Source: Nitrospirota bacterium (lineage in GTDB: Bacteria > Nitrospirota > UBA9217). From it: a stretch of 40,383 bases of DNA. The translations under genes and the position numbers were made by a program. The stretch lies in assembly GCA_029858565.1 (NCBI GenBank), contig JAOUEV010000032.1, positions 1-40,383 of the forward strand, given 5' to 3'. Below are positions 63 through 39,868 of this stretch, piece after piece (positions within the stretch are counted from its first letter, which is position 1; every line of letters starts with the position of its first letter). Below the pieces are notes generated by a model that ran no database searches, had not been told where the DNA came from, and was given only the letters and a program-made list of their open reading frames with translations.

Positions 63-842
63 TTATTCCGCAATCCGAGATCCGCAATCCGCAATGACGT
101 TGTTTTTCAAGCTTCCGATCCCCTCGATCCTCACCTCGATCTCGTCTCCCGCTTGCATCGGTCCGATGCCCGACGGTGTACCGGTGATGATCAGGTCCCC
201 GGGATGGAGCGTCATGATCCGGGATATGAAGCTCACGAGATGCGGAACGTTGAACAGGAACTGCGAAGTGCGTGAAGACTGCCTGCGCACGCCGTTCAAA
301 TAGGATTCGACCAGGAGGTCGGACGGATCCAGATCGGTTTCGATCCACGGTCCGATCGGGCAGAAGGTGTCAAAAGACTTTGCCCGCGTCCACTGGCCAT
401 CTTTTCTTTGCAGGTCCCGGGCGGTCACATCATTTGCGCAGGTGTATCCCCGTATATGTTCTGCTGCCGCATCGGGGGAACAATCGCGTGCGGTCCTTCC
501 GATCACCACGCCGAGCTCGGCCTCATAGTCCACCTGCCGGCTCATCGCCGGGTACCGGATCTGCTCCCCCGGCCCGATCACGGTTGTCGGCGGCTTCAGG
601 AAGATGATCGGCTCTTCGGGAACCGCCATGCCCAGCTCCCGGGCGTGGTCGCGGTAGTTCAGACCCACAGCGACCACCTTGGTCGGAACGCAGGGCGGGA
701 GCAACCGCAGGGCAGAAAGAACATGCCTTGTCTTTTTCCTGGCAGATGGTACGAGCCCATCGCCTTCCAGTTCAATGACCTCGCTGCCTTCGATCACGCC
801 GCAGGCGGGTCGTCCCTGTGCCTGGAAACGGACAAGACGCAT
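63..842 (-). CDS. Fumarylacetoacetate hydrolase (FAH) family protein
   Basis: A 259-aa cytoplasmic enzyme of the FAH superfamily, which hydrolyses, decarboxylates or isomerises small beta-diketo acids using a divalent metal. Visible family features are the KPPTTVIGPGE stretch, the metal-binding block VDYEAELGVVIG, GYTCANDVTARDLQ, and the C-terminal GDLIITGTPSGIGPM signature. The ATG at 842 has GAGG six bases upstream, overlapping the stop region of the DsbC-like gene, so it is probably the last gene of the lysine operon. The substrate cannot be told from sequence. The last residues (about IADCGSRIAE) are encoded by a 7-bp tandem repeat and look like an added tail. Confidence 0.88.
   Translation of the reverse strand: MRLVRFQAQGRPACGVIEGSEVIELEGDGLVPSARKKTRHVLSALRLLPPCVPTKVVAVGLNYRDHARELGMAVPEEPIIFLKPPTTVIGPGEQIRYPAMSRQVDYEAELGVVIGRTARDCSPDAAAEHIRGYTCANDVTARDLQRKDGQWTRAKSFDTFCPIGPWIETDLDPSDLLVESYLNGVRRQSSRTSQFLFNVPHLVSFISRIMTLHPGDLIITGTPSGIGPMQAGDEIEVRIEGIGSLKNNVIADCGSRIAE
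65..97. repeat. Heptamer tandem repeat (ATCCGCA-type)
   Basis: About four units with a 7-bp period: TTCCGCA, ATCCGAG, ATCCGCA, ATCCGCA. It lies over the 3' end of the FAH gene and supplies its last codons. Related heptamers lie between the two tRNA genes and between murG and ftsW. Confidence 0.7.
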
Positions 843-15494: not shown

Positions 15495-16238
15495 TTACAG
15501 CTTGCCAGGACTGTAGATCCTCTCAAGGAGCTTCCGGTCGTCAAGGACCTTGTCATGGAGCCAGGGCATATACTCCAGGGTCACCACCCCGCCCCAGTTC
15601 AGTTCCTGCAGACGATCAAGGATGTCCATGCAGAATCCGTCGCGATCGATGGGCTGATGTTTGCGGGCAATGCCCTTCAGCTCCCGGTCGCGGATTACCG
15701 CTGACAGGTGTAGGTTCACGATGTGGGTGTGGTAGGTCTCAATGACCCAGGTGATCTCGGACTTCGGCAGCCGCGACGTATCAAGCACCATCGGCAACTG
15801 ATGGCTCATGATCAGGTCCGGAGGCAGCACCCGCTTTTTGTCCCAGAAGGTCTCCACGGCAATGGTCACCTTGGTACGGTCCTGCAGGTGTTGGATATTG
15901 TCCAGCACCGGCTGGTGTTCTTCCTTCTTCCTTCCGGCTGCCGCGATCTCGGGGTGGAGCACGACAATGCCCGCGTTGACCGCTTCCGCAAACTGAACCG
16001 TCCTCCCCGCCCAGTCAAGAAAAGCATCGTCAGCAAGATTGCCGTCAGCAGCGTGGACAGAGAATACGGGAACCCGGTAGGAACGCACCTGCTTTTCGAC
16101 CTCGGCTAGACGATCGCGGCCGTGCTGGAACTCATCAACGTCCGAAGGGAACGCCAGTTCGATCGGGACGCCCTCGAGCTTCTTCAGCCGGGCGTTGCTG
16201 TTGGAAAACTCGATCTGTCGTCGGACACAAAATCGCAT
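15495..16238 (-). CDS. Sugar phosphate isomerase/epimerase-like TIM-barrel protein
   Basis: A 247-aa protein of the xylose isomerase-like/AP endonuclease 2 TIM-barrel superfamily. Strand ends carry the expected acidic and His residues: IELAFP, FSVHAADG, VVLHPE, AVETFWDK, VNLHLSA and VTLEYMPWL. Members isomerise sugars or inositols, or act on AP-site DNA; which applies cannot be said. It has its own -10 element and shares the downstream terminator with the ferritin-like gene. Confidence 0.75.
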   Translation of the reverse strand: MRFCVRRQIEFSNSNARLKKLEGVPIELAFPSDVDEFQHGRDRLAEVEKQVRSYRVPVFSVHAADGNLADDAFLDWAGRTVQFAEAVNAGIVVLHPEIAAAGRKKEEHQPVLDNIQHLQDRTKVTIAVETFWDKKRVLPPDLIMSHQLPMVLDTSRLPKSEITWVIETYHTHIVNLHLSAVIRDRELKGIARKHQPIDRDGFCMDILDRLQELNWGGVVTLEYMPWLHDKVLDDRKLLERIYSPGKL

Positions 16239-16449: not shown

Positions 16450-16526
16450 TGGCGGGGCGGACGGGGCTCGAACCCGCGACCTCCGGCGTGACAGGCCGGC
16501 GTTCTAACCAGCTGAACTACCACCCC
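16450..16526 (-). tRNA. tRNA-Asp (GTC)
   Basis: Read on the minus strand it begins GGGGTGGTAGTTCAGCTGG, has anticodon GTC in a CTGTCAC loop, a normal T-arm (GGTTCGAGCCC inside a GC stem), and an encoded CCA at 16450-16452. The acceptor stem pairs with one G-U. Confidence 0.97.
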
Positions 16527-16530
16527 AACG

Positions 16531-16588
16531 AGAAGTGCGTAACGCGGAATGAGAAACGTGCATAGAAAACTTCGCACTCCGCACTGAA
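16531..16588. repeat. Heptamer repeat between the tRNA genes
   Basis: Contains CTTCGCA-CTCCGCA (16570-16583) and, inverted, ATTCCGC-GTTACGC. It is related to the heptamers at 65-97 and 37138-37165. It lies within the transcribed spacer of the tRNA pair. Confidence 0.5.
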
Positions 16589-16594
16589 CTGCTA

Positions 16595-16670
16595 TGGTAG
16601 GCGGAACAGGGATCGAACCTGTGACCCCAGCCTTGTAAGGGCTGTGCTCTCCCAGCTGAGCTATCCGCCC
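16595..16670 (-). tRNA. tRNA-Val (TAC)
   Basis: Minus strand, 76 nt with encoded CCA (16595-16597). It begins GGGCGGATAGCTCAGCTGG, has anticodon TAC in the loop CTTACAA, and T-loop GGTTCGATCCC. It is upstream of tRNA-Asp and surely co-transcribed with it. Confidence 0.97.
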
Positions 16671-22664: not shown

Positions 22665-25238
22665 CTACATGAGCTTGGAGCGTATTCCCTCAAAATCTTT
22701 CCCCTTCGGCATGATGAACAGCCCCTTGCCGCTGCTTCGCGCTTCCCACAGCTCGCCAAGCCTGCGCTTTTCGGCGTTATCCGGCAGGTCCCAATCACGG
22801 CTGTTCTTATACTCCACGACGAGAATACGGCCATCATCCAGTTTGCAGACGAAGTCCGGATAGAAGCGGTCGGTCGCGGTCTGCAGGGAAAAAGAAGTCG
22901 GCTTGCGCTCCACATTGCGCACCCAATATTTCAATCCCGGAAGCTGCGTTGAAAGAAACAGGGCGCACTCAAACTCCTCGCCCGAGGCTTTCAGGTTCCC
23001 GATCTCCGGGAAGAAGTGCTTCGGCAGTTCCACGAAACCCTGGTAGGAATCATCGAATGCATACCGGCCATGTTGAAAAACCATCTCGCAGCTGCCGTCT
23101 GCGATGAATTGCTCGGGCACAAGCAGCATCTGCTGGTGTATACCGGCCATTGCTTGTTGTTTTGCTTCTGTGATCTTGTTTTCGAGCACCGCGCGCAGGC
23201 GGAACTTGGCGTAGCTCAATTCCTCTAACGAAAACCCCCGAGTGGTGATCAGCCAGGACACCGCCTTGTCGAGAAATGCGGCTTTCTCGTCCGGTAGAAT
23301 GCTTTCGTCAGGAATATTCCGCTCAAGCCAGGAAACAAGCTGCACCTGATCCCATCCTATTGCAATATCAAGCAAAGCCAGCTGCGCTTCGATATTGTCG
23401 ATATATTCGAACTTGATACTCTCCTCGCGAATAAAGAACCGGCCGCCTTGCGCCGCGAGTTGCGGTTTCTTAAACTCCGTCTCGGTCACTTCGCAAGGAA
23501 AATCCAGCAAACGCCATTCGCCCTGCAGAAGGTGGGTTTCCTCAAAAGGTTCCCACAGATCACCTTGACGCAGCGCAAGAAGCGGCACGCGGAACAATTC
23601 GCCCTGTTCGGACGGCGTTTTCTGGCGGGGAGCCGCGGGCGTCTTCAACCTGACCAGCGCAAGACGGATTGACTCTTTTCCTTCCGGCGTCTGAAATACG
23701 CCTTCCAGTGCTTCAGCTTGTTTTGCGGAAAAGCTGCCTTTGATCGTGATGGTTCCCATTTCAGGGGCTATTTCGATCTTATTGGTCAGTCCAGCAGGAA
23801 TTGCCTCGGGCGCGGGCAGCTCCGGCGCGCTGAAGGTAAGACCTGCCGACAGCGTGAAGAGATCTTCCGTTCCCGGTTCATCCACTGCATGGATGAGGTC
23901 ATTTGTTTCCTGCCGTTCGAACCCGTTCCGCACAAGGCCATCGCGAAGACTTGCCACGGTCGCCTGGAAATTGGTCGAGGTGATGAATGCGTATGCTTCG
24001 TTCAATTCCGTGCGCGTCTTACGGCTGGCTTTTGGCATGCGGAGAATGCGGCCGAGAATCTGTTCAGCCGCTGTCGCGGACTCGGTGTTTCGGAATGAGC
24101 AAAGCACGTACGCAAAAGGGCAGTCCCAGCCTTCGCGCAGTTTGTCGATCGTGATAATGAACCGTTTGCTCGATTTGTCGGACAACACATCCTCGCCCGC
24201 AAGGTCGTCCACGGCCCCGGTTGCGATCGCAATCTCGCCTTCAGGAACGCTGAAGTCGTCGATCAGAGCCTGTTTAACCTTCTCCGGAGTCAGGGTTTCA
24301 TGTTCAGCGCTGTGACGCTCGGCCTGGAGCAGCATAATAGGCCGCAAATATTCCCCGGTTGCCGCCTTTTCCGCGTCAGCCGCCGCCTGAAGTTTGTTAA
24401 GACAGGCGATTGCGTCCCGCAAGGCGTCCTGCCAGTTCTCCCGCCGTACTAGCTCCAGCGGCATCTTGATCATCTCAGCGGCCTGAAGCGACGACGCGCC
24501 GACGCTGTAGAGCACATTGCTCGGTTGGCGAATGCGGTCTGGTGTTGCCGTCAGTTCGAGGATCGCGCTCGGCTCGAACCGGGCAAGCGTCTCGAAAGCA
24601 AGCAGTGTACCTTGGTTGTGCGCCTCGTCAACGATTACGAAGGGCCGCCGCATCCGGATAGCGTCCACGAACGACTGATTCCCCACAATGCGCGGGTCCG
24701 TGATCCCCTCAAAATGCGATTGCATGTCGCTGTTCTGCTTGTAGACGTTCAGCCGCGCCATGTCCTCCTGCTTGAATGCCTGCATGGTTGCAACAATAAT
24801 TGCGTTCGTTGCATTCAGCACATGTGGCTTGACCCGCAGGGCCTCATCCAGGTCCATGACCGTTACTTCACCCAGCGCGGAGAAGACGACTTGGTGCAGA
24901 AGGTTGGTCGGTGTACGGAGCGCCCGCAGGGTCTGTTCGCGGATGGGCTCGGAAGGAACCAACCAAAGCGTCACGCTGTAACGGGTGAACAGCAGGCTCT
25001 TGTTCGCACGCTCAATCGCCAAGCCGCCGATCAGCGTCTTGCCGCCGCCGGTGGGGATGCGCAGGCAGACATAGGGGACTTGCGACAGCGTCGACAGAGC
25101 GCGATAGGTCAGCCTGACACCCCGCCATTCCTCCGTGGTATCTTCGTAGGCTTTGCGTGGGTCGTTGCTCAGTTTGCAGCGCTTGAAAAACGCTTCAAGT
25201 CTGTCCAGCGCCTCGGATTGGTATGCTTTGAGAATCAT
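22665..25238 (-). CDS. Type III-like restriction subunit: DEAH helicase with C-terminal nuclease
   Basis: An 857-aa SF2 translocase. Walker A is PTGGGKT (62-68), the DEAH box is VDEAHNQ (204-207), and motif III is LTATPD (229-234). The C-terminus has a PD-(D/E)xK-type site: YPDFV (D795), then VVEYK (E809, K811). This matches Res of type III restriction enzymes, though shorter than typical Res. The start ATG overlaps the methyltransferase stop as ATGA, so the two are translationally coupled. It needs the methyltransferase partner for target recognition in known systems. It ends 70 bp before the bidirectional terminator. Confidence 0.88.
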   Translation of the reverse strand: MILKAYQSEALDRLEAFFKRCKLSNDPRKAYEDTTEEWRGVRLTYRALSTLSQVPYVCLRIPTGGGKTLIGGLAIERANKSLLFTRYSVTLWLVPSEPIREQTLRALRTPTNLLHQVVFSALGEVTVMDLDEALRVKPHVLNATNAIIVATMQAFKQEDMARLNVYKQNSDMQSHFEGITDPRIVGNQSFVDAIRMRRPFVIVDEAHNQGTLLAFETLARFEPSAILELTATPDRIRQPSNVLYSVGASSLQAAEMIKMPLELVRRENWQDALRDAIACLNKLQAAADAEKAATGEYLRPIMLLQAERHSAEHETLTPEKVKQALIDDFSVPEGEIAIATGAVDDLAGEDVLSDKSSKRFIITIDKLREGWDCPFAYVLCSFRNTESATAAEQILGRILRMPKASRKTRTELNEAYAFITSTNFQATVASLRDGLVRNGFERQETNDLIHAVDEPGTEDLFTLSAGLTFSAPELPAPEAIPAGLTNKIEIAPEMGTITIKGSFSAKQAEALEGVFQTPEGKESIRLALVRLKTPAAPRQKTPSEQGELFRVPLLALRQGDLWEPFEETHLLQGEWRLLDFPCEVTETEFKKPQLAAQGGRFFIREESIKFEYIDNIEAQLALLDIAIGWDQVQLVSWLERNIPDESILPDEKAAFLDKAVSWLITTRGFSLEELSYAKFRLRAVLENKITEAKQQAMAGIHQQMLLVPEQFIADGSCEMVFQHGRYAFDDSYQGFVELPKHFFPEIGNLKASGEEFECALFLSTQLPGLKYWVRNVERKPTSFSLQTATDRFYPDFVCKLDDGRILVVEYKNSRDWDLPDNAEKRRLGELWEARSSGKGLFIMPKGKDFEGIRSKLM

Positions 25239-30596: not shown

Positions 30597-31817
30597 TCAC
30601 AGATACTCGCCAAGCCATTTCCAGAGCCGGTTCATTATCCCGCCGTGCAGGAACCGCCCCTGCACCGGCTGGTGGTTCTCGGCGCCGTAGAGCACCAGCC
30701 CGACGCCGGTCGCGTAGATCGGACTGTTCACCACATCCATGAGCCCGCCGATGTTCTTGGGTCCGCCCCGCCGGATCGGCATGCCCAGATACTTCTCCGC
30801 GGCATCCTGCATCCCTTCCATGAGCGCCGTACCGCCCGTCAGCACGATGCCCGACGCGATCATGTCCTCGGAACCGGTGCTCTTGAGCCTCTGCAGCACC
30901 AGTTCGAACAGTTCGGCCACCCGGGGCTCGATGATCTCGCACAGGATCTGCCGCGACAGGAGCCGCGGCGGCCTGCCGCCCACGCTTGCGACCTCGATCG
31001 AGTCCTCGTGCTTGACCATGGCCGCGAGCGCGCACCCGTGCCTGATCTTGATCTTCTCGGCCTCGGACGAGGGCGTGCGCAGACCGATCATGATGTCGTT
31101 CGTCACATGGTTCCCGCCGACCGGCAGCACGCCGGTGTAGAAAAGGCTGCCTTCGCGGAACAGCGCCATGTCCGTGGTCCCGCCGCCGATGTCCACCACG
31201 GCAACGCCGATCTCCTGCTCCTCGCTCGTCAGGACCGCCCGTGACGACGCCAGCGGCTGCAGCACCACGTCGCTCACATCGAGCCCCGCGCGCGAGCAGC
31301 TCTTGACGATATTCTGGATCGCCGTGACCGCGCCGGTGATGATATGGACCTTGACGTCCAGCCGCGTCCCGGACATGCCCAGCGGCTCCTTGATCCCGTC
31401 CTGGTCGTCGATGATGAACTCCTGGGGCAGCACATGAAGGATCTGCTGGGTCCCGGGGATGTCGATGGAACGCGCCGTGTCGATCGCGCGGGCGATGTCC
31501 GCCTGCCCCACTTCACGGTTCTTGATGGATGCGACGCCCTGGGACTTGAGCCCCTTGATGTGGTCCCCCGAGATCCCGACGTAGACCGAGTTGATCTCGA
31601 CCCCGGCCATGAGTTCAGCTTCTTTTACTGCCTTCTTGATGGATTCCACCGTGCTGTCGATGTTCACCACCACGCCCTTCTTCAGGCCGTGCGACGGACT
31701 GATGCCGATGCCGATGATGTCCACGCGGCCGTCGTCCTTTACCTCGCCGACGATGGCGCAGACCTTCGTCGTCCCCAGATCGAGACCGACAATGATGTTC
31801 TCCGGTTTTTTCGCCAT
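30597..31817 (-). CDS. ftsA: Cell division protein FtsA
   Basis: A 406-aa actin-like protein that tethers FtsZ to the membrane. Phosphate-1 loop GLDLGTTKVCAIVGE at the start, VVDIGGGTTDMAL for phosphate 2, and GIVLTGGTALMEG for the adenosine motif. The C-terminal GGIMNRLWKWLGEYL is the amphipathic membrane-targeting helix. I use ATG 31817 (MAKKPENI), preceded by GAGGGGG; the upstream frame is not conserved. It lies between ftsQ and ftsZ as usual. Confidence 0.97.
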   Translation of the reverse strand: MAKKPENIIVGLDLGTTKVCAIVGEVKDDGRVDIIGIGISPSHGLKKGVVVNIDSTVESIKKAVKEAELMAGVEINSVYVGISGDHIKGLKSQGVASIKNREVGQADIARAIDTARSIDIPGTQQILHVLPQEFIIDDQDGIKEPLGMSGTRLDVKVHIITGAVTAIQNIVKSCSRAGLDVSDVVLQPLASSRAVLTSEEQEIGVAVVDIGGGTTDMALFREGSLFYTGVLPVGGNHVTNDIMIGLRTPSSEAEKIKIRHGCALAAMVKHEDSIEVASVGGRPPRLLSRQILCEIIEPRVAELFELVLQRLKSTGSEDMIASGIVLTGGTALMEGMQDAAEKYLGMPIRRGGPKNIGGLMDVVNSPIYATGVGLVLYGAENHQPVQGRFLHGGIMNRLWKWLGEYL

Positions 31818-31870
31818 GCCACCCCCTCGGAGGAAACCGGGGTCCGGCAGCAAGAAGCTGGGAGCCACCC

Positions 31871-32764
31871 TTAGCCCCTCTGCTTCTTCCCCTTGCCCCG
31901 TACCCCGTGCCCCGTATTCCGGTCTTTTACCACCATGACCGCGGCCTGCCGCTCCGGCCGAAGTTCCACGGCCGTATACTCGATCCCCTGACGGTTCATG
32001 TCCGACACGATCTCGCCCAGCCTTCTGAGCTTTTCCTCGTAGTTCCCGCAGCCGATCCGGAACTCGCGGTTCGCGTAGATGATCGCCACGGTTTCCGCGC
32101 TGTCCGCTTTCACGGTCACTGCTCCCGGTTCCCAGCCGCCGCGCGCAGCGAGCGCGTCGAGCAGGGTGAACGCATCGTTCAGAACGCCGCCGGTCACCGG
32201 CTCGCCGGGAACTGCGCGCCAGTCGCGGATCGAAACTACCGGCATCGCTGCCAGGACCGGGTCGCCCTGCGCGACCGCGGTGATCACCGTGCCGCCGCTG
32301 TCCACCAGATACCGCCCGTTCACTGCCAATAGCACCGCGCGGGGAGACCGCTCGGTGAATTCCATGCTGATGCGGTTAGGCAGCTTCCGCTCGATGCGAA
32401 CGTCCTCCACCCAGGGATTGGCCCGGGCCCGTTTGACTGCTGCTGCCGGATCAACGCGAAATATGTTCTGGCCCGTAAAGAGATCGGCCATGGCGCGGAC
32501 CTCTTCCTCCCGCACCCGGTGAACGCCTTTCACGTCCACCCCGGCGACGAGGAACATCTCGGCGTGGGTAAGCCAGGCGTATCCCTCCCAGGCGCCATAG
32601 CAAAGCGCGACGGTCAGGATCAGGGCGATGATCGTGCCAAGAGCGCCGGCTGCAGGGGAATTTCTTTTCCCCCTCCCCATCCCGGCATCTACCCTGCGGA
32701 CCGTCGTGCGGACCGGCGTCCTGCGGTATTTGCCCGGCACCCTGACGTTCTTATAGTCGCGCAC
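31871..32764 (-). CDS. ftsQ: Cell division protein FtsQ
   Basis: A 297-aa bitopic membrane protein linking early and late divisome parts. A basic cytoplasmic tail (1-38), one transmembrane helix (about 39-65), a POTRA domain (FLVAGVDVKGVHRVREEEV onward), then the beta domain with RKLPNRISMEFTERSP. The last dozen residues (GHGVRGKGKKQRG) are encoded by a 7-bp tandem repeat and are not part of the usual fold. Length otherwise normal. It follows ddl by 24 bp. Confidence 0.93.
   Translation of the reverse strand: MRDYKNVRVPGKYRRTPVRTTVRRVDAGMGRGKRNSPAAGALGTIIALILTVALCYGAWEGYAWLTHAEMFLVAGVDVKGVHRVREEEVRAMADLFTGQNIFRVDPAAAVKRARANPWVEDVRIERKLPNRISMEFTERSPRAVLLAVNGRYLVDSGGTVITAVAQGDPVLAAMPVVSIRDWRAVPGEPVTGGVLNDAFTLLDALAARGGWEPGAVTVKADSAETVAIIYANREFRIGCGNYEEKLRRLGEIVSDMNRQGIEYTAVELRPERQAAVMVVKDRNTGHGVRGKGKKQRG
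31895..31915. repeat. Heptamer tandem repeat (GCCCCGT) in the ftsQ 3' end
   Basis: Three 7-bp units, GCCCCGT-ACCCCGT-GCCCCGT, on the plus strand, coding in ftsQ for part of its C-terminal tail. Confidence 0.65.
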
Positions 32765-32771
32765 CTGTTCC

Positions 32772-32799
32772 TCGTCTCTTGTCGCCCGTCACTTCTCGC
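32772..32799. repeat. Heptamer-period repeat between ddl and ftsQ
   Basis: Four degenerate 7-bp units on the plus strand: TCGTCTC, TTGTCGC, CCGTCAC, TTCTCGC. The array includes the stop codon and last two codons of ddl (32789-32799). Confidence 0.5.
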
Positions 32800-33724
32800 T
32801 CTTTATCACTGCCAGCCGCACGATCTCCTCCACCAGTTCGGGAAACCCGATACCCGACCCCTGGGCTATCTCGGGAAGAAGGCTCGTGGCGGTCATGCCC
32901 GGCAGGGTATTCACTTCGAGGATGAAGGGTTCGCCGTTGCCGTCGATGATGAAGTCGACCCTGCTGTAGCCGCGGCATCCGAGCACCTGGTGGGCGTGCA
33001 AGCCTGCATCGAGCGCTCGTTTATACACCGATTCCGGGACCCGGGCCGGAAAATAGTGCTGAGACCCGCCCGCCTCATATTTTGCCTGGTAGCTGTAGAA
33101 CCCGTCCCGCTGCGGCACGATCTCGATCGCGCCGAGGGCGCGGTTGCCCAGGATCCCGACCTGTACCTCCATGCCGCTGATATACGCCTCCACGAGGATC
33201 TCAGCATCGTACCGGAATGCGAGTTCAGCGGCCTCGTCGAACCTTTCCGCGGTCCGGACCACGCTGACACCCACACTGGACCCTTCCGCGCTCGGTTTGA
33301 CCACGAGGGGATATCCGATCTCGCTCTGTGCCGAGACAAGCCCGGGCCGGTCGCCCCGGTTCACGACCCGAAAGGGACCGACGCGCAGACCGGCCGCGCG
33401 GAACAGCGTCTTGGACACTATCTTGTTCATGCCCATGGCAGATGCCAGGATCCCCGATCCCGTATAGGGAATTCCCAGGACCTCGAGCAGACCCTGGATC
33501 GCGCCATCCTCACCGAATTTGCCGTGAAGACCGTTGAACGCAATGCCGATGCCTGAGGCCTTTATCTGTTCGACCACATCCGGCCCCACATCTATGCCCA
33601 CGGCATCATAGCCTTTGCCGGTCAGCGCTTTCAGGATGGCCTTGCCTGAGCTGAGCGACACCTCACGCTCCGAGGACATCCCGCCCATCAGCACGCCGAT
33701 CTTCTTCTTACTCACCAATGCCAT
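32789..33724 (-). CDS. ddl: D-alanine--D-alanine ligase
   Basis: A 311-aa ATP-grasp ligase making D-Ala-D-Ala for the MurF step. N-terminal GVLMGGMSSEREVSLSSG, the ATP-grasp core VVKPSAEGSSVGV, and the metal/ATP end FILEVNTLPGMTATSL. Length typical of DdlB. The ribosome site GAGGG is a little distant from the ATG. It is flanked by murB and ftsQ, the standard dcw position. Confidence 0.97.
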   Translation of the reverse strand: MALVSKKKIGVLMGGMSSEREVSLSSGKAILKALTGKGYDAVGIDVGPDVVEQIKASGIGIAFNGLHGKFGEDGAIQGLLEVLGIPYTGSGILASAMGMNKIVSKTLFRAAGLRVGPFRVVNRGDRPGLVSAQSEIGYPLVVKPSAEGSSVGVSVVRTAERFDEAAELAFRYDAEILVEAYISGMEVQVGILGNRALGAIEIVPQRDGFYSYQAKYEAGGSQHYFPARVPESVYKRALDAGLHAHQVLGCRGYSRVDFIIDGNGEPFILEVNTLPGMTATSLLPEIAQGSGIGFPELVEEIVRLAVIKSEK

Positions 33725-33780
33725 TTTTCTTTTTCCCTCTAGCCCTTTAGCCCTTGTTTGCTTCCTAATCCCTTGTTCAG

Positions 33781-34689
33781 CTAATCCTCTCCAATGATCT
33801 TGATCTCCGGTTCCAGCCGCACCTGATGCATCTCAAGCACCCGCTCCTTCACAACCTCCATGAGCTTGAGCACGTCGGCAGCGGTCGCGCCGCCCAGATT
33901 CACAATGAAGTTCCCGTGCTTTTCCGAGATCTGCGCACGTCCCACGGCAAACCCCTTGAGCCCCGCCTGCTCGATCAGCTTTCCGGCCGCTTCATCCAGC
34001 GGGTTCTTGAACACCGAACCCGCGTTCGGAAGGCCCCAGGGCTGGCGTTCCTTTCTGCCGGCCATCAGCTCGCTGATCCGCTCCTTGATCCGTTCCCGCT
34101 CGCCTTTCCTGAGGATGAGCTTTGCCTCCACGATCACTTGTCCCGGCGGCACGTTCGCCGTGCGGTAGCCGAATCCCATCTCATCGTGGTGACGGAGCAC
34201 CAGGTCACCCGACGGTGTCAGGAGCGTCACCGCGTCGGTAACATCGCCTATCTCTCCCCGGGAGGTGCCGGCGTTCATGCATAAGGCGCCGCCCACGGTG
34301 CCGGGGATGCCGGCCGCGAATTCGAGGCCGGTGAGCTCGTGCTCCACGCTGAAGTTCATGAGCCTGGCCAGCGAAGCGCCGGCCTCGGCGGAAAGCACGG
34401 CGTAGGATCCGCCCACGGACCGGTATTCCCGGGTGATCGAGATCGCGGCCATGTTCCTGAGACTTACGACCACGCCGCGAAAGCCGCCGTCCCGGACCAG
34501 CAGGTTCGTGCCCCCGCCCAGCACCAGGAAGCGCAGGTTCCGCTCGCGGATCTCTGCCATCAGGGCGAGCAGGTCGCCGCGGTCCGCGGGAACGACAAAG
34601 GCATCCGCCGGTCCTCCGATCTGGTAGGACGTATGACGGCTCATGGGCTCCTGCAGCCGCACTTCCCCCCGTAGGTTCGTGAAGTTCAT
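33781..34689 (-). CDS. murB: UDP-N-acetylenolpyruvoylglucosamine reductase
   Basis: A 302-aa FAD enzyme reducing UDP-GlcNAc-enolpyruvate to UDP-MurNAc. FAD-binding blocks [22 protein letters not shown] and [15 protein letters not shown]; the proton-donor Ser lies in NAGSVFKNP. It belongs to the shorter MurB type. The ATG at 34689 overlaps the murC stop as ATGA, so the two are coupled. The 57-bp gap to ddl is filled with CTAGCCC/TTTAGCCC-type repeat-like sequence. Confidence 0.97.
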
Positions 34690-36056
34690 TGTTTCAGTTT
34701 CTCCAGTACCGCTTCTCCGAGTTTCCACACATCGCCCGCTCCGAGGGTCAGCAGCAGATCACCCTGCCTGAGCGTCTCCGCGAGGTGCGCGATCAGTTTT
34801 TCCCGGTCGCCGATGTACGCGGCGTCCTTGTGGCCATATCCCTTCACACCCGCCTCCACCGCCTGCCCCGACACCCCGGGGATCGGCTGTTCGCCGGCCG
34901 CATAGATATCCGTGATGATCACCCGGTCCGCCTGATTGAAAGCGCTGAAGAACTCCTCAAGCAGATGTTTGGTCCTCGTATAGCGGTGCGGCTGGAACAC
35001 GCACACGACACGACGTCCCAGGGCGGCCTTGGCAGCGGCAAGTGTCGCCCGCACCTCGGTGGGATGGTGGCCGTAATCGTCGACCACCAGCACGCCCCGC
35101 GCCTCTCCCTTGATCTGGAAGCGGCGCTGGACGCCGCTGAACTCCCTGAGCGCCCTGCGGATCACCTCAAGTTCGATGTTCAGCTCCCGCGCCACGGCAA
35201 TGGCCGCAACGCTGTTGCTCACGTTGTGCATGCCCGGGACCGACAGCTCGAACCATCCCAGGTCGTCCTTGTGGTTCATGACCCGGAACTTCGCGCCCAG
35301 AGGCAGCAGGGTCGCGTCCTTCACCTGGTAATCGGCCTGGGCGCTCATGCCGTAGGTAAGATACCGCTTCTCGATCTTCGGAATGAGCGATTGGATGTGC
35401 TTCTGGTCCAGGCAGAGGATCGAGACGCCGTAAAAAGGCACTTTGTTGATGAAGGCGATGAAAGCGTCCTTGATCTCGTTGATGTCCTTGTAGTAGTCCA
35501 GGTGCTCCTCGTCGATGTTCGTCACCACGGCAATGGCGGGCGTGAGCTTGAGGAAGCTGCCGTCGCTCTCATCGGCCTCGGCCACGAGGAAGTCGCCCTG
35601 ACCCAGCTTGGCGTTGGATCCCAGGCTGTTCAGCTTCCCGCCGATCACCACGGTCGGGTCGATGCCGCCGGCCGCGAGCACCGTGGCCACCATGGATGTC
35701 GTGGTGGTCTTGCCGTGGGCTCCGGCGATGGCCACGCCGTACTTGAGCCGCATGAGCTCCGCCAGCATCTCGGCACGGGGGATCACCGGGACCTGCTTCT
35801 CCCGCGCTGCAACGACCTCCACATTGTCCTTTTTCACGGCCGAGGAGATCACGACCACGTGGGGCTCGGTGATGTTCTCGGCGCGGTGTCCGATCATGAT
35901 CTCTCCGCCCAGGCTCTTCAGCCGCTCGGTGGTGTCCGACTCCCGGAGGTCCGAGCCCGATACCCGGTAACCCAGGTTCAGGAGCACCTCGGCGATGCCG
36001 CTCATGCCGATGCCGCCGATGCCGACAAAATGGATATGCTGGATCTTCTTAAACAT
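34686..36056 (-). CDS. murC: UDP-N-acetylmuramate--L-alanine ligase
   Basis: A 456-aa Mur ligase adding L-Ala to UDP-MurNAc. N-terminal [18 protein letters not shown] loop [13 protein letters not shown], and [12 protein letters not shown] in the C-terminal domain, all diagnostic of MurC. It overlaps murG by 8 bases at its start and murB by 4 at its end. Confidence 0.97.
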
Positions 36057-37113
36057 GCTCTTTGCAGGCCCTCGCGATCTCTTCCGCGGCAGTGGACGCC
36101 AGGGGCTCCGCGCCCCGCCGTGCCTGTGCCGCGCAGGTCTTGATCGTCTGCGCCAGCCCCGCCGGCGTCAGGTCCTTCTGAACGATCACGGTCGCGCCGC
36201 CCCGATCGGCAAGCGCCCGCGCATTGTGCTCCTGATGGTTGTCCGCGGCAAAGGGGAAGGGGATCAGCACCGCCTGTTTCCCGCATACCGCAAGCTCCGC
36301 CACGGTCGTTGCGCCTGACCGGCAGACCACCAGGTCCGCCGCGGCGTAGGCCCCGGCCATGTCATTGATGTAGGGAAGCACGACACCTGCCAGTCCCGCC
36401 TCCCGGTATCCCTGTCCCACCTCGGCAGCATCCTTTTCACCGGTCTGGTGGAGGACCTGGAGACGCGGCACGGTCGCCAGCTCCTTTGCCGCGTCCTTCA
36501 TCGCCATGTTGATCGCGTGGGCGCCGCCGCTGCCGCCCATGACCAGGACCGTGTACTTTTCCGCCGCCAGTCCAAAGACCTTTTTTGCCGACTCCCCATT
36601 GCCCTGCTCAATGCCTTTTCGCACGAGCGGTCCGGTCAGGACCTTTTTCCCGGCAGCAAAGAACCCCTGGCTGTCCCTGCCCGGGAAGCAGAGGAATATT
36701 TTTTTCGCGAACCTCCCGGCCACGCGGTTCGCGAGTCCCGCGTAGGAATTCGGTTCCACAATGATCAACGGCAAGCGATGCAGCCATGCCGCCAGGGCCA
36801 CCGGGCCTGACGCGTATCCGCCGACTCCCACGACCGCTCCGGGCCGCTCCTGCCGGAGCAGGCTGACCGCCTGCAGAACGCTGCGGGGAAGGGCCATAAG
36901 CGTCTTGAACCGCGCGGTCAGCCCCATGCCCTTGAGCTTGCCCACGGTGATGAACCGCACCGGAAGCTTCTCCGCTGGAAGGACCCGCGCCTCGATGCCC
37001 TGCGCGGTCCCCGCGAAAACGACCTCATCGCCCTGCCTGAGCAGCTCGCGGGCAATGGCTATCCCCGGGTAGAGATGCCCGCCGGTTCCGCCGGCCGCGA
37101 TCACGACCTTCAC
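36049..37113 (-). CDS. murG: UDP-N-acetylglucosamine--N-acetylmuramyl-(pentapeptide) pyrophosphoryl-undecaprenol GlcNAc transferase
   Basis: A 354-aa GT28 transferase that converts lipid I to lipid II on the inner face of the membrane. N-terminal [15 protein letters not shown], central [12 protein letters not shown], and [12 protein letters not shown] at the UDP-GlcNAc site. Start is GTG 37113. It overlaps murC by 8 bases. The 61-bp gap to ftsW holds a heptamer repeat. Confidence 0.97.
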
Positions 37114-37137
37114 GCGGTCGCAAACCTTTCATTATCA

Positions 37138-37165
37138 TTCCGCACTCCGCACTCTGCGCTCCGCA
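37138..37165. repeat. Heptamer tandem repeat (CTCCGCA) between ftsW and murG
   Basis: Four consecutive 7-bp units: TTCCGCA, CTCCGCA, CTCTGCG, CTCCGCA. The clearest of the heptamer arrays in the window. Confidence 0.8.
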
Positions 37166-37174
37166 CTTGATTCC

Positions 37175-38284
37175 TCATGCCGTGCTCTTTGATATGTTCA
37201 ACAGCACGCCCACCGACGCAAGCGTGACCAGGAGCGCTGAACCGCCATAGCTCACCAGCGGAAGGGCGATGCCCTTGGTCGGCAGCAGGCCGGTCACGAC
37301 CGCCATGTTGATCAGGGCCTGGATGCATATCAGGAGCGTTATCCCCAGCGCCAACATGCGGCTGAAGGGATCTGCCGCAAGGCGAGCGATGCGGAGACCG
37401 CGCCACAACACGATGCAGAACAACACGAGCACGCCAAGGGCGCCGACAAGCCCGAGCTCCTCGCCGATCACCGCGTAGATGAAATCGGAATGCCGCTCGG
37501 GCAGGAACAGAAGCTTCTGCCGTCCCTCGCCAAGACCGCGGCCGAACACGCCGCCGCTGCCAAAGGCCAGAAAGGACTGGATGATCTGGTGGCCGGCGCC
37601 CTGGGGGTCCGCCCAGGGATCCAGAAAGCTCATGATCCTCTTGAGCCGGTAGGTCTTGAACATGACCGCGGCGGCAGCGAACGGCACGAGCAGCGCGAGC
37701 ACGCCGCCGAGATGCATCAGGTTCGCGCCGCCCGCAAAGAGCATGATGAACATGATCACGGACATGGTCATGACCGTGCCGAAATCGGGTTGCAGGAGCA
37801 CCATGAGCAGGAAGGTCCCGGTGACCACGTACGCCGGGACCAGTCCGTTCATGAGATCACGTATGCGCGTTCCCTTGGACGCGATGTACGAGCTCAGATA
37901 GACCACCAGCGTGAACTTGAGAAGTTCCGCGGGCTGGAACCGCGCGCCGCCGGCGCTGATCCACCGCCGCGCGCCGTTGACCGTCCGGCCGATACCCGGC
38001 AGGAACGTGGCGATAAGCAGCAGCAGGGTCAGGATCAGGAGACCGCCGACCACCCGTTTGTCCGCGAGCTTCTCGTGGTCGACCTGCATCAGGATCGCCA
38101 TCGCCGCAAGACCGATCGCCGCCCAGACGATCTGACGCTTCATGAAATGCGAAGCGTCGTGATAGGTCGTGAGCGCCACCACGCTGCTCGAGCTGTAGAC
38201 CATGACCACGCCGCAGACAAGCAGCAGCATCACCGCCGTGAACAGCATTCTGTCGTAATGTCCCCGTGATTCCATTATTGCCAT
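37175..38284 (-). CDS. ftsW: Lipid II polymerase FtsW (SEDS family)
   Basis: A 369-aa membrane glycosyltransferase with about ten transmembrane helices that polymerises septal peptidoglycan with its cognate PBP. Family signatures are MVYSSSSVVAL at the start, INGLVP-type and PDFGT loops, and the C-terminal PTKGIALPLVSYGGSALL. Placement between murD and murG identifies it as FtsW rather than RodA. Start ATG 38284; a second ATG three codons later is possible. Confidence 0.95.
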   Translation of the reverse strand: MAIMESRGHYDRMLFTAVMLLLVCGVVMVYSSSSVVALTTYHDASHFMKRQIVWAAIGLAAMAILMQVDHEKLADKRVVGGLLILTLLLLIATFLPGIGRTVNGARRWISAGGARFQPAELLKFTLVVYLSSYIASKGTRIRDLMNGLVPAYVVTGTFLLMVLLQPDFGTVMTMSVIMFIMLFAGGANLMHLGGVLALLVPFAAAAVMFKTYRLKRIMSFLDPWADPQGAGHQIIQSFLAFGSGGVFGRGLGEGRQKLLFLPERHSDFIYAVIGEELGLVGALGVLVLFCIVLWRGLRIARLAADPFSRMLALGITLLICIQALINMAVVTGLLPTKGIALPLVSYGGSALLVTLASVGVLLNISKSTA

Positions 38285-38366
38285 ATCTTCAAACCCCGCA
38301 CCGGACGGTCATGAACCATTCGTACTAATCGGTCAGCGGTCGACATTTTTACTAATGCCGTCTTCC

Positions 38367-39734
38367 TTATTGTTTACGGCTCATCGCCGTCGTTTCCGTC
38401 AGCTTCCCGACTGCTTCCTTGAATTGCCGGCCCCGGTCCTCGAAATCCCTGAACATGTCAAAGCTCGCACAGGCAGGAGACAGAAGAACGACATCGCCGG
38501 CACTCGCCCGGTCATGGGCAAGCTGCACCGCGTCCTGCAGCGTCTTGGCAAAGACCGTCTCCGTCGAGCTGCCCAGCGCTTTTGCCATCTTGTCCGCCGC
38601 TTTCCCGATCAGGACCAGGAGCTTCACCTTCTCGCGGAACAGGCCGGCGAGAGGCGTGAAGTCGCTTCCCTTATCATAACCTCCCGCGATCACGATGACC
38701 GGCCGGTCGAATCCCTCGACCGACTTCACCACAGCGCCGACATTCGTTCCCTTGGAGTCGTTGATGTATGATACGCCGTTCATTTCCCGCACGAACTCCA
38801 GACGGTGCTCCAGGCCCGGGAATTCCCTGAGCACGGCCGCGATGTGCTCGGGCGGACAGCCGGCGGCCATGGCCATTGCCGAAGCCGCCATGGCATTCTC
38901 CAGGTTGTGCACGCCCTTGATGCGTATCTCGTCAACACCGCAGATCCGCTGGTCCATGACCACCAGCTGGTCGGCATCCACATAAGCGCCGCCCGCGGGT
39001 TTCTCGAGCCGGGAAAAACCGACCACCCGGGAGCGCGTCCTGACCGCCATGGCCCGCACCAGCGGATCATCGTAATTCAGCACCAGCACATCGTCCTGAT
39101 GCTGGTTCATGAATATCCGTGCCTTGGCTTCGCTGTACTCCTCGATCGTGGCGTAGCGGTCCAGGTGATCCTGCGTCACGTTCAGGATCGCGGCAACCGC
39201 GGGCCGGAAGGTCTCGATGTCCTCCAGCTGAAAGCTCGACAGTTCCACGACGATCCAATCCTTGTGCTTGAGCGCCGGGACGTCCTCGGTCAGCGCATTC
39301 CCGATGTTGCCGGCAACGAGCGTCCGCTTTCCTGCCTTCAGGAGCATGAGCCCGACCAGCGTGGTGACCGTTGATTTTCCATTGGTGCCCGTGATGCCGG
39401 CGAAGGCCGCATCGGACAGGAGCCACCCCAGTTCAAGTTCGCCGATGACCTTCACGCCATGCCGCTGGGCCTTCAGCACCGGCGCGATCTTCGGAACGCC
39501 GGGCGAAAGGACCACCAGGTCCGTTTCGATGAAGATCCGCTCCGGATGTCCGCCGGCCTCCACGACGATCTCCGCGGTGCCGAGACGACGCACCTGCTCC
39601 GCAAGCTGGTCCAGCGGTTTATTGTCCGTGATGGTCACGATCGCGCCGAGAGCATGAAGTGCCCGCGCCGCGGCAATACCGCTCCGGGCCATGCCCACGA
39701 CCGTCACCCGTTTTCCCGTAAAATCAGGCTGCAC
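38367..39734 (-). CDS. murD: UDP-N-acetylmuramoylalanine--D-glutamate ligase
   Basis: A 455-aa Mur ligase adding D-Glu. N-terminal VTVVGMARSGIAAARAL, ATP loop GITGTNGKSTVTTL, and YINDSKGTNVGA in the C-terminal domain, all typical of MurD. I choose GTG 39734 (MQPDFTGKRV) because GGAGG stands five bases upstream; an ATG six codons earlier has no such site. The 82-bp gap to ftsW contains a short 23S-rRNA-like stretch. Confidence 0.96.
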   Translation of the reverse strand: MQPDFTGKRVTVVGMARSGIAAARALHALGAIVTITDNKPLDQLAEQVRRLGTAEIVVEAGGHPERIFIETDLVVLSPGVPKIAPVLKAQRHGVKVIGELELGWLLSDAAFAGITGTNGKSTVTTLVGLMLLKAGKRTLVAGNIGNALTEDVPALKHKDWIVVELSSFQLEDIETFRPAVAAILNVTQDHLDRYATIEEYSEAKARIFMNQHQDDVLVLNYDDPLVRAMAVRTRSRVVGFSRLEKPAGGAYVDADQLVVMDQRICGVDEIRIKGVHNLENAMAASAMAMAAGCPPEHIAAVLREFPGLEHRLEFVREMNGVSYINDSKGTNVGAVVKSVEGFDRPVIVIAGGYDKGSDFTPLAGLFREKVKLLVLIGKAADKMAKALGSSTETVFAKTLQDAVQLAHDRASAGDVVLLSPACASFDMFRDFEDRGRQFKEAVGKLTETTAMSRKQ

Positions 39735-39771
39735 ACAACCTCCAGGAGCCATTCAAACGATAATTCCTATT

Positions 39772-39868
39772 GAAACCACGGGTCCCGCCTGCCGGCGGGA
39801 CACACAGATGACAGCGATACCGCGCCTTTGTCTTCTATCCGTGTGTCCGCGAAGCGGACCTGTGGTTA
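39772..39868. repeat. Inverted repeat element with two embedded hairpins, murD-mraY gap
   Basis: The outer arms read AAACCACGG and CTGTGGTTA, and the inner parts ACACAGATGAC and TCTATCCGTGT. Inserted in the left arm is a perfect hairpin GTCCCGCC-TGCC-GGCGGGAC (39782-39801), and in the right arm GTCCGC-GAA-GCGGAC (39845-39859). This looks like a non-coding dispersed element carrying nested palindromes. Confidence 0.6.

Follow-up and report, generated by a model that had tools for sequence, protein, structure and literature searches.

Heptanucleotide tandem repeats lying between genes, like the Nitrospirota arrays described here, are found in cyanobacteria under the name STRR, and short palindromes dispersed through transcribed spacers are represented by REP/BIME and MITE-type elements. 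The closest described system are the GGGAATC and GGGGA(C/T)T heptamers of Xanthomonas and Nostoc, for which the excerpts of PMC4692102 drawn on here set out where they lie, a strand rule, inverted pairs and a preference for four units. According to these excerpts the G-rich strand is sense after a stop codon or antisense before a start codon, four units are tied to the minimum for a quadruplex, and the 7-bp preference is referred to a polymerase-footprint idea cited from an earlier SSR survey (2007); three STRR heptanucleotides in Calothrix are mentioned, and REP/BIME and MITE-type repeats are named. Other heptamer or 6–11-bp arrays occur in the excerpts of PMC4060949. In Beggiatoaceae the TAACTGA direct repeats consist of one unit and lie mostly just upstream of start codons, as far as the excerpts of PMC4679880 go, whereas the Nitrospirota units are many and lie after stops. 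What was known already for quadruplex heptamers, within the quoted parts of PMC4692102, is shared by the Nitrospirota arrays: period 7, strand rule, four-unit preference and inverted pairs. However, the GGGAATC repeats of those parts have one, quadruplex-forming unit per genome, and the new element is that the same rules are followed by many units, mostly not capable of forming quadruplexes. Species-specific repertoires, siblings of 8–9 bp and the validity of the rule also at tRNA genes go beyond the same excerpts. A literature search, with most subscription papers outside it, gave no description of these units, and the unit strings matched only unrelated papers.

The window, by which the whole analysed stretch of 40,383 nt is meant, is part of a 3.92-Mb, 144-contig Nitrospirota MAG (labelled G000), and among named relatives its FtsW is closest to those of Nitrospirae MAGs (72–74% identity). 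G001 belongs to the same genus as G000, and the relatives were compared as one genome per species. The features of the window are collected in Table 1. The FtsQ profile match is weak and covers residues 4–169 of 297. With Rfam 15 at the gathering score, six sources (132605 bases) yielded only two tRNAs and a tmRNA, and no match at any array. A protein of 857 aa encoded at 22665–25238 resembles type III restriction endonucleases weakly, with a match below the cut-off.

Table 1. Genes and heptad arrays of the window, in order of position
Feature	Position	Strand	Evidence or remark
FAH-family hydrolase gene	63–842	-	family matches stop at residue 251–252 of 259
Four-heptad array ending FAH-family hydrolase gene (its last codons)	67–95	-	TRF period 7, 4.1 copies, score 44; lag-7 score 10
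tRNA-Asp	16450–16526	-	ARAGORN, Rfam tRNA
Inverted partner of 16569–16585, adjoining tRNA-Asp	about 16532–16558	+	by eye
Two-unit stretch, 5′ (purine) arm of inverted pair, tRNA-Val/tRNA-Asp gap	16569–16585	-	lag-7 score 7
tRNA-Val	16595–16670	-	ARAGORN, Rfam tRNA
ftsA, ftsQ, ddl, murC, murG, ftsW (cell division/cell wall)	30597–38284	-	NCBIfam; junctions compared between genomes
Four-heptad YACGGGG-type array, last ftsQ codons, just before ftsA	31889–31916	-	TRF; lag-7 score 11
Degenerate GACGA-type heptads, ddl-ftsQ gap	32773–32799	-	TRF period 14
Four-heptad array, ftsW-murG gap	37139–37167	-	TRF period 7, 4.1 copies, score 44; lag-7 score 10

The initial annotation had listed five arrays with a 7-bp period in gaps between genes. 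Three of them are clear (67–95, 31889–31916 and 37139–37167), the one at 16570 has just two units, and the one at 32772 is insignificant alone, with no lag-7 segment at a score of at least 4 in 32773–32799. The intergenic position holds for 37139, 16570 and 32772; the other two form the last codons of called genes. The array at 37139–37167 begins 13 nt past the ftsW stop and ends 25 nt ahead of the murG start, its G-rich strand being ftsW sense, and by eye it reads GTGCGGA, GCGCAGA, GTGCGGA and GTGCGGA, then ATGA. The array at 67–95 is a four-unit run at no more than one mismatch per unit (TTGCGGA, TTGCGGA, TCTCGGA, TTGCGGA), and that at 31889–31916 is reported by TRF as period 14 with 2.0 copies, i.e., four heptads, and as period 7 with 3.0 copies from 31896. 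The degenerate heptads of the ddl-ftsQ gap have a clear GACGA array as their orthologous counterpart in G001, and the gap measures 24 nt with degenerate heptads vs. 58 nt with the clear array in these two congeners. In total, four lag-7 segments at a score of at least 10 were found in the window against 0.2 expected from order-3 Markov simulation, the fourth (15918–15934) lying inside a called gene. The palindrome at 39771–39868, past murD, is not a heptad array; it has dispersed partial matches in several relatives and similar copies in loci L084 and L085.

The expectation that period 7 should exceed other periods genome-wide was borne out in the G000 sample. At a score of at least 14 the G000 sample holds 17 segments at period 7 and 10 at period 14, with at most one at each other period from 2 to 24 and 0.0 in simulation, the count of 17 referring to 430 kb that include contig C76, which was picked for having hits. 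With the window and C76 left out (371 kb, score of at least 12), there are 18 segments at period 7, 12 at period 14, 8 at period 8 and no more than 3 elsewhere, and Markov simulation gives 0 at periods 7, 8 and 14; chance origin of the period-7 arrays is ruled out by such simulation. The lag correlation in operon gaps is higher at lag 7 (+8.6) than at all lags except lag 3 (+13.6), and the latter signal is probably missed coding sequence. In relatives the excess is uneven, and period 9 is equally common or commoner at a score of at least 10 in G001 (2 segments at period 7 and 6 at period 9 in 138 kb), G006 (7 and 9) and G007 (2 and 2). Farther away, at a score of at least 11, two period-7 segments were found in 33 kb of Nitrospinota, two in 104 kb of Desulfobacterota/delta, two in 394 kb of cyanobacteria and one in 168 kb of other sequence, and none in the Dadabacteria (178 kb) or Bdellovibrionales (77 kb) samples.

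Units are alike within one array and differ between arrays, and several families coexist in G000 (RTGCGGA, TTGCGGA/TTTCGGA, GACGAGN, GTAAGGN, GTAGCCN and others). Together with the excess of period 7, this agrees with the earlier proposal of a 7-bp preference with differing units inside one genome. The repertoires are species-specific, even between G000 and its congener. Counted as exact overlapping matches on both strands, RTGCGGA pairs number 83 in G000, 75 in G010, 74 in G002, 46 in G009 and 3 in G007, with 1 in the same-genus G001; ATTGCGG pairs number 97 in G009, 54 in G000, 47 in G004 and 2 in G001. CAGGAGN triples are absent from G000 and present in G001 (25), G004 (24), G009 (22) and G005 (22), with 10 in G011 vs. 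17 in its control, and RTTCAAA pairs, also absent from G000, occur in G003 (15), G005 (10) and G001 (9). Among 148 Nitrospirota genomes the RTGCGGA pair was present in all 14 members of the family and in 32 of the 134 others, where there were mostly 1–2 matches and where controls rival true matches in some genomes (G043, 11 true and 10 control; G126, 5 and 11).

The arrays also obey a rule of position and strand. Among 86 operon-gap arrays pooled over ten family genomes, with homologous arrays of relatives all counted, the G-rich strand is sense in 67 and antisense in 19. The sense arrays start at a median of 3 nt past the stop codon, and 61 of 67 start within 15 nt, compared with a mean of 21.3 and a maximum of 31 under uniform placement (1000 draws), so that the distance to stops upholds the suggestion that arrays lie near gene ends. 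The 5′ end of the G strand is nearer the gene border in 75/86 operon-gap arrays and in 44/50 intergenic arrays of the G000 sample, the latter count being based on a simple ORF scorer without tRNAs. Since these gene calls ignored tRNAs, 7 of the 12 apparently divergent arrays of this sample are really located in a tRNA cluster (L082), and all seven start 4–9 nt past a tRNA (sense) or end 5–16 nt before a tRNA (antisense). The window's tRNA-Val/tRNA-Asp gap has the same layout. As tRNA genes obey the same rule, it is not about codons, and stop and start codons are ruled out as its cause. At locus L245 of G006, orthologous to window positions 37175–39734, there is a 19-nt gap counting both codons, and the stop and start codons themselves belong to heptads.

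In the G000 sample with C76, two-unit runs of NTNCGGA at no more than one mismatch per unit number 95, three-unit runs 7, four-unit runs 41 and five-unit runs 2, and none is longer; in noncoding DNA without C76, CGGA-family runs comprise 35 of two (15 in shuffled sequence), 5 of three, 29 of four and none longer. Over the whole genome, exact degenerate patterns of three, four and five units give 201, 96 and 14 matches (5, 0 and 0 for reversed controls), and, since a run of n units yields n-2, n-3 and n-4 matches, the counts imply about 105 arrays with three or more units and about 82 with four or more. Eight separate arrays account for the 14 five-unit matches, and about 23 arrays of the main unit family have exactly three and about 74 exactly four units. 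The corresponding numbers for three, four and at least five units are 35/83/3 in G004, 38/71/8 in G009, 37/45/1 in G006, 113/88/8 in G003, 50/37/4 in G010, 26/20/5 in G002 and 45/18/10 in G005, where one mutated end unit makes a four-unit array count as three. Four units thus predominate in G000, G004, G006 and G009, and three-unit arrays outnumber them in G003, G010, G002 and G005. The drop past four units is sharp in six genomes, as told by the implied fraction of arrays with at least five among those with at least four units (G000 8/82, G003 8/96, G004 3/86, G006 1/46, G009 8/79, G010 4/41), less sharp in G002 and absent in G005, in which 10 of 28 arrays have five or more units. Long arrays do occur, i.e., 11–12 units at a contig start of G005, about 14 units in G002 (L089, 18704) and an 11-unit run on contig C103 of G000. 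The last of these makes it improbable that truncated assembly explains the limit of four units, and so does the finding that, of 45 contig starts, 1 shows a period-7 array within the first 120 nt. Freely varying copy number, the trait of phase-variable microsatellites, was not encountered in G000 with its cut-off at four; the arrays of G005 are long. The ends of the G000 arrays are sharp: the base just before unit 1 is A in 41/41 four-unit arrays and the second base past unit 4 is T in 38/41, and in these 41 arrays no conserved base was seen further upstream and no conserved flanks.

Ordinary replication slippage with a 7-bp preference, tolerated in spacers only, would be in keeping with the dominance of period 7 in G000, with units alike within and unlike between arrays, and with the long, variable arrays of some relatives (G005, G002). 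However, it predicts a steady fall of copy number and no strand rule, and neither was observed: six genomes (G000, G003, G004, G006, G009, G010) show the sharp cut-off past four units, array ends are fixed, the strand rule extends to tRNA borders, and it leaves unexplained that a few units recur at dozens of sites in one species but are nearly missing from its congener. We therefore regard slippage as an unlikely explanation overall, and it finds no support as the main process in G000, because copy number there falls abruptly past four units. Of the common slippage or copying process suggested by the initial annotation, it is the copying that finds partial support, in the species-specific repertoires and in a many-copy G003 palindrome with a heptad arm.

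In gaps of the family genomes, inverted repeats (intrinsic-terminator-like ones included) have the purine arm first in 71 cases, the pyrimidine arm first in 10 and are neutral in 84, and 450 kb of coding DNA hold 5, 3 and 2, respectively. Convergent inverted pairs of heptad arrays are present, and pyrimidine arms mostly come after a purine arm in the same gap. Complementarity of at least 10 was found within gaps for 20/59 sense and 12/26 antisense arrays, and between gaps for 30/885 and 10/390. An opposite run of the same family lies within 120 bp on the 3′ side of 10/50 G000 arrays and on the 5′ side of 5/50. Purine-first palindromes also lead in convergent (12:2) and divergent (7:0) gaps, although numbers are small. 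In an RNA fold test of seven hand-picked gaps, inverted pairs fold strongly at L204 (z -9.54), L209 (-5.75) and L081 (-4.71) and more weakly at L092 (-2.36) and L109 (-1.87). The window's own gaps fold no better than shuffles (ftsW-murG z 0.12, tRNA gap z -0.68), which gives no support to a hairpin there. At L204:366–480 two four-unit arrays face each other around an inner palindrome, with a predicted RNA fold of -73.3 kcal/mol. Dispersed palindromes whose arms carry direct repeats of about 9 bp (CGCAAAGCC type) were seen at L083:13772–14016, L214:17234–17792, L098:6847–7081 and L112:3607–3867, with several purine-first copies in G000, and a dispersed palindrome of GTCATTGCGAGGAGC type at L211:458–879 and L084:12817–13432.

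The dispersed palindrome of G003 measures about 150 bp and contains an array of four exact units, together with outer CACGAAGG arms and a central palindrome. Twenty sites, selected for an identical 27-nt four-unit string from at least 21 matches, can be aligned in their flanking sequence too; as judged by eye, the right arm is retained at 16 of them, wholly or mostly missing at 3 and cut by a contig end at 1. By sequence description this element, with an alignable body beyond the arms in 20 copies, would fit the REP/BIME and MITE-type class, from which the Nitrospirota elements differ in that their arms are heptad direct repeats; the four-unit arrays of G000 are without conserved flanks. The G003 palindromes (L253–L272) are nested, i.e., CACGAAGG outer arms, heptad inner arms and a central GGCC palindrome, and look as if one palindrome entered the loop of another.

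On these grounds the arrays may be one arm, or the surviving single arm, of dispersed short palindromic elements that were multiplied as modules, a reading to which we give an even chance. The arms of such elements would be direct repeats of the 7-bp unit, or of 8–9 bp in sibling families, and in the main G000 family the module would be (ANTNCGG)x4 followed by ANTGA, about 33 bp with sharp ends. Entire modules, or large parts of them, would be copied into transcribed spacers (operon gaps, tRNA gaps), and copies lying purine-arm first would be retained. The copying itself could, as a guess, be a single-strand hairpin process, REP-like mobilisation in trans or strand switching at forks. We infer that an array arises when a preformed module is copied and that arrays standing alone are what is left of palindromes; the evidence for copying of whole elements is from G003, not from G000.

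Comparison of conserved junctions bears on the same question. Over 18 junctions in 4–8 genomes, arrays of period 7–11 or 14 occur in 32 of the 117 genome-junctions; some genomes but not all carry one at 14 of the junctions, and none does at the other 4, the junction loci of relatives having been fetched because the window or L089/L209 carries arrays there, which makes for selection bias. Gaps below 25 nt make up 23 of the 117, and many orthologous junctions are without any array. Arrays at the same junction in different genera have no common 9-mer in 25 of 27 pairs, and inheritance is present but weak, since a 9-mer is common to 2/27 same-junction pairs vs. 7/402 different-junction pairs. The ftsW-murG gap contains GTGCGGA heptads in G000, and 8-bp GACGCGGC/GACACGGG units in G006; G003 has 8-bp AATCGGAT units there and G012 a 9-bp hairpin. 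One orthologous gap elsewhere measures 7 nt in G000 vs. 229 nt with an array in G006. Named Nitrospirota loci L009–L014 are not independent evidence, because their ftsW-murG gaps are identical to those of G006, G012, G002, G005, G010 and G003. Under module copying each lineage would amplify its own units, which would leave unrelated arrays at one junction in different genera; it accounts for size, ends, repertoires and turnover.

A function of the transcript has also been considered, namely that spacer RNA rich in purines (G-rich, C-poor), by itself or folded into a purine-first hairpin, would prevent Rho from loading between co-transcribed genes or would adjust how operon mRNA and tRNA precursors are processed or how stable they are. 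The sense bias in operon gaps, the same rule in the L082 tRNA cluster, the pyrimidine arms mostly preceded by a purine arm and the strong folds at L204, L209 and L081 speak for it, but many orthologous junctions are array-free with tiny gaps, and the small numbers from convergent and divergent gaps show purine-first palindromes prevailing there as well. As the explanation of the arrays this is doubtful; a putative transcript-level reason for retaining purine-first copies (e.g., that Rho loading on C-rich spacer RNA is avoided) is nevertheless compatible with module copying. More improbable still is a dedicated, putative copying machine that would lay four-heptad modules (about 28–33 nt) with the G strand 3′-outward from gene borders in transcribed spacers, the unit template changing by lineage, so that arrays meeting from both borders would be the purine-first palindromes and the quadruplex repeats of Xanthomonas and Nostoc one choice of unit. 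G-quadruplex elements, as proposed for GGGAATC repeats, match in where they lie, in the strand rule, in inverted pairing and in the preference for four units as given in the excerpts of PMC4692102, but have next to no probability here and are ruled out as a common cause by tract counts. Four GGG tracts are present in 1 of the 86 operon-gap arrays and four GG tracts in 23, whereas 62 have neither, and 11 of the 14 without any GG are still sense.

Arrays of heptamers have been observed in many bacteria, with no consensus on what causes them. As arrays mostly unable to form quadruplexes share the rules of the quadruplex repeats, the cause must lie outside quadruplexes. Both module copying and transcript-level selection are directly testable, since copy number is sharply limited and the strand rule extends to tRNA borders, and units that are replaced fast at conserved operon junctions provide markers for very close strains.
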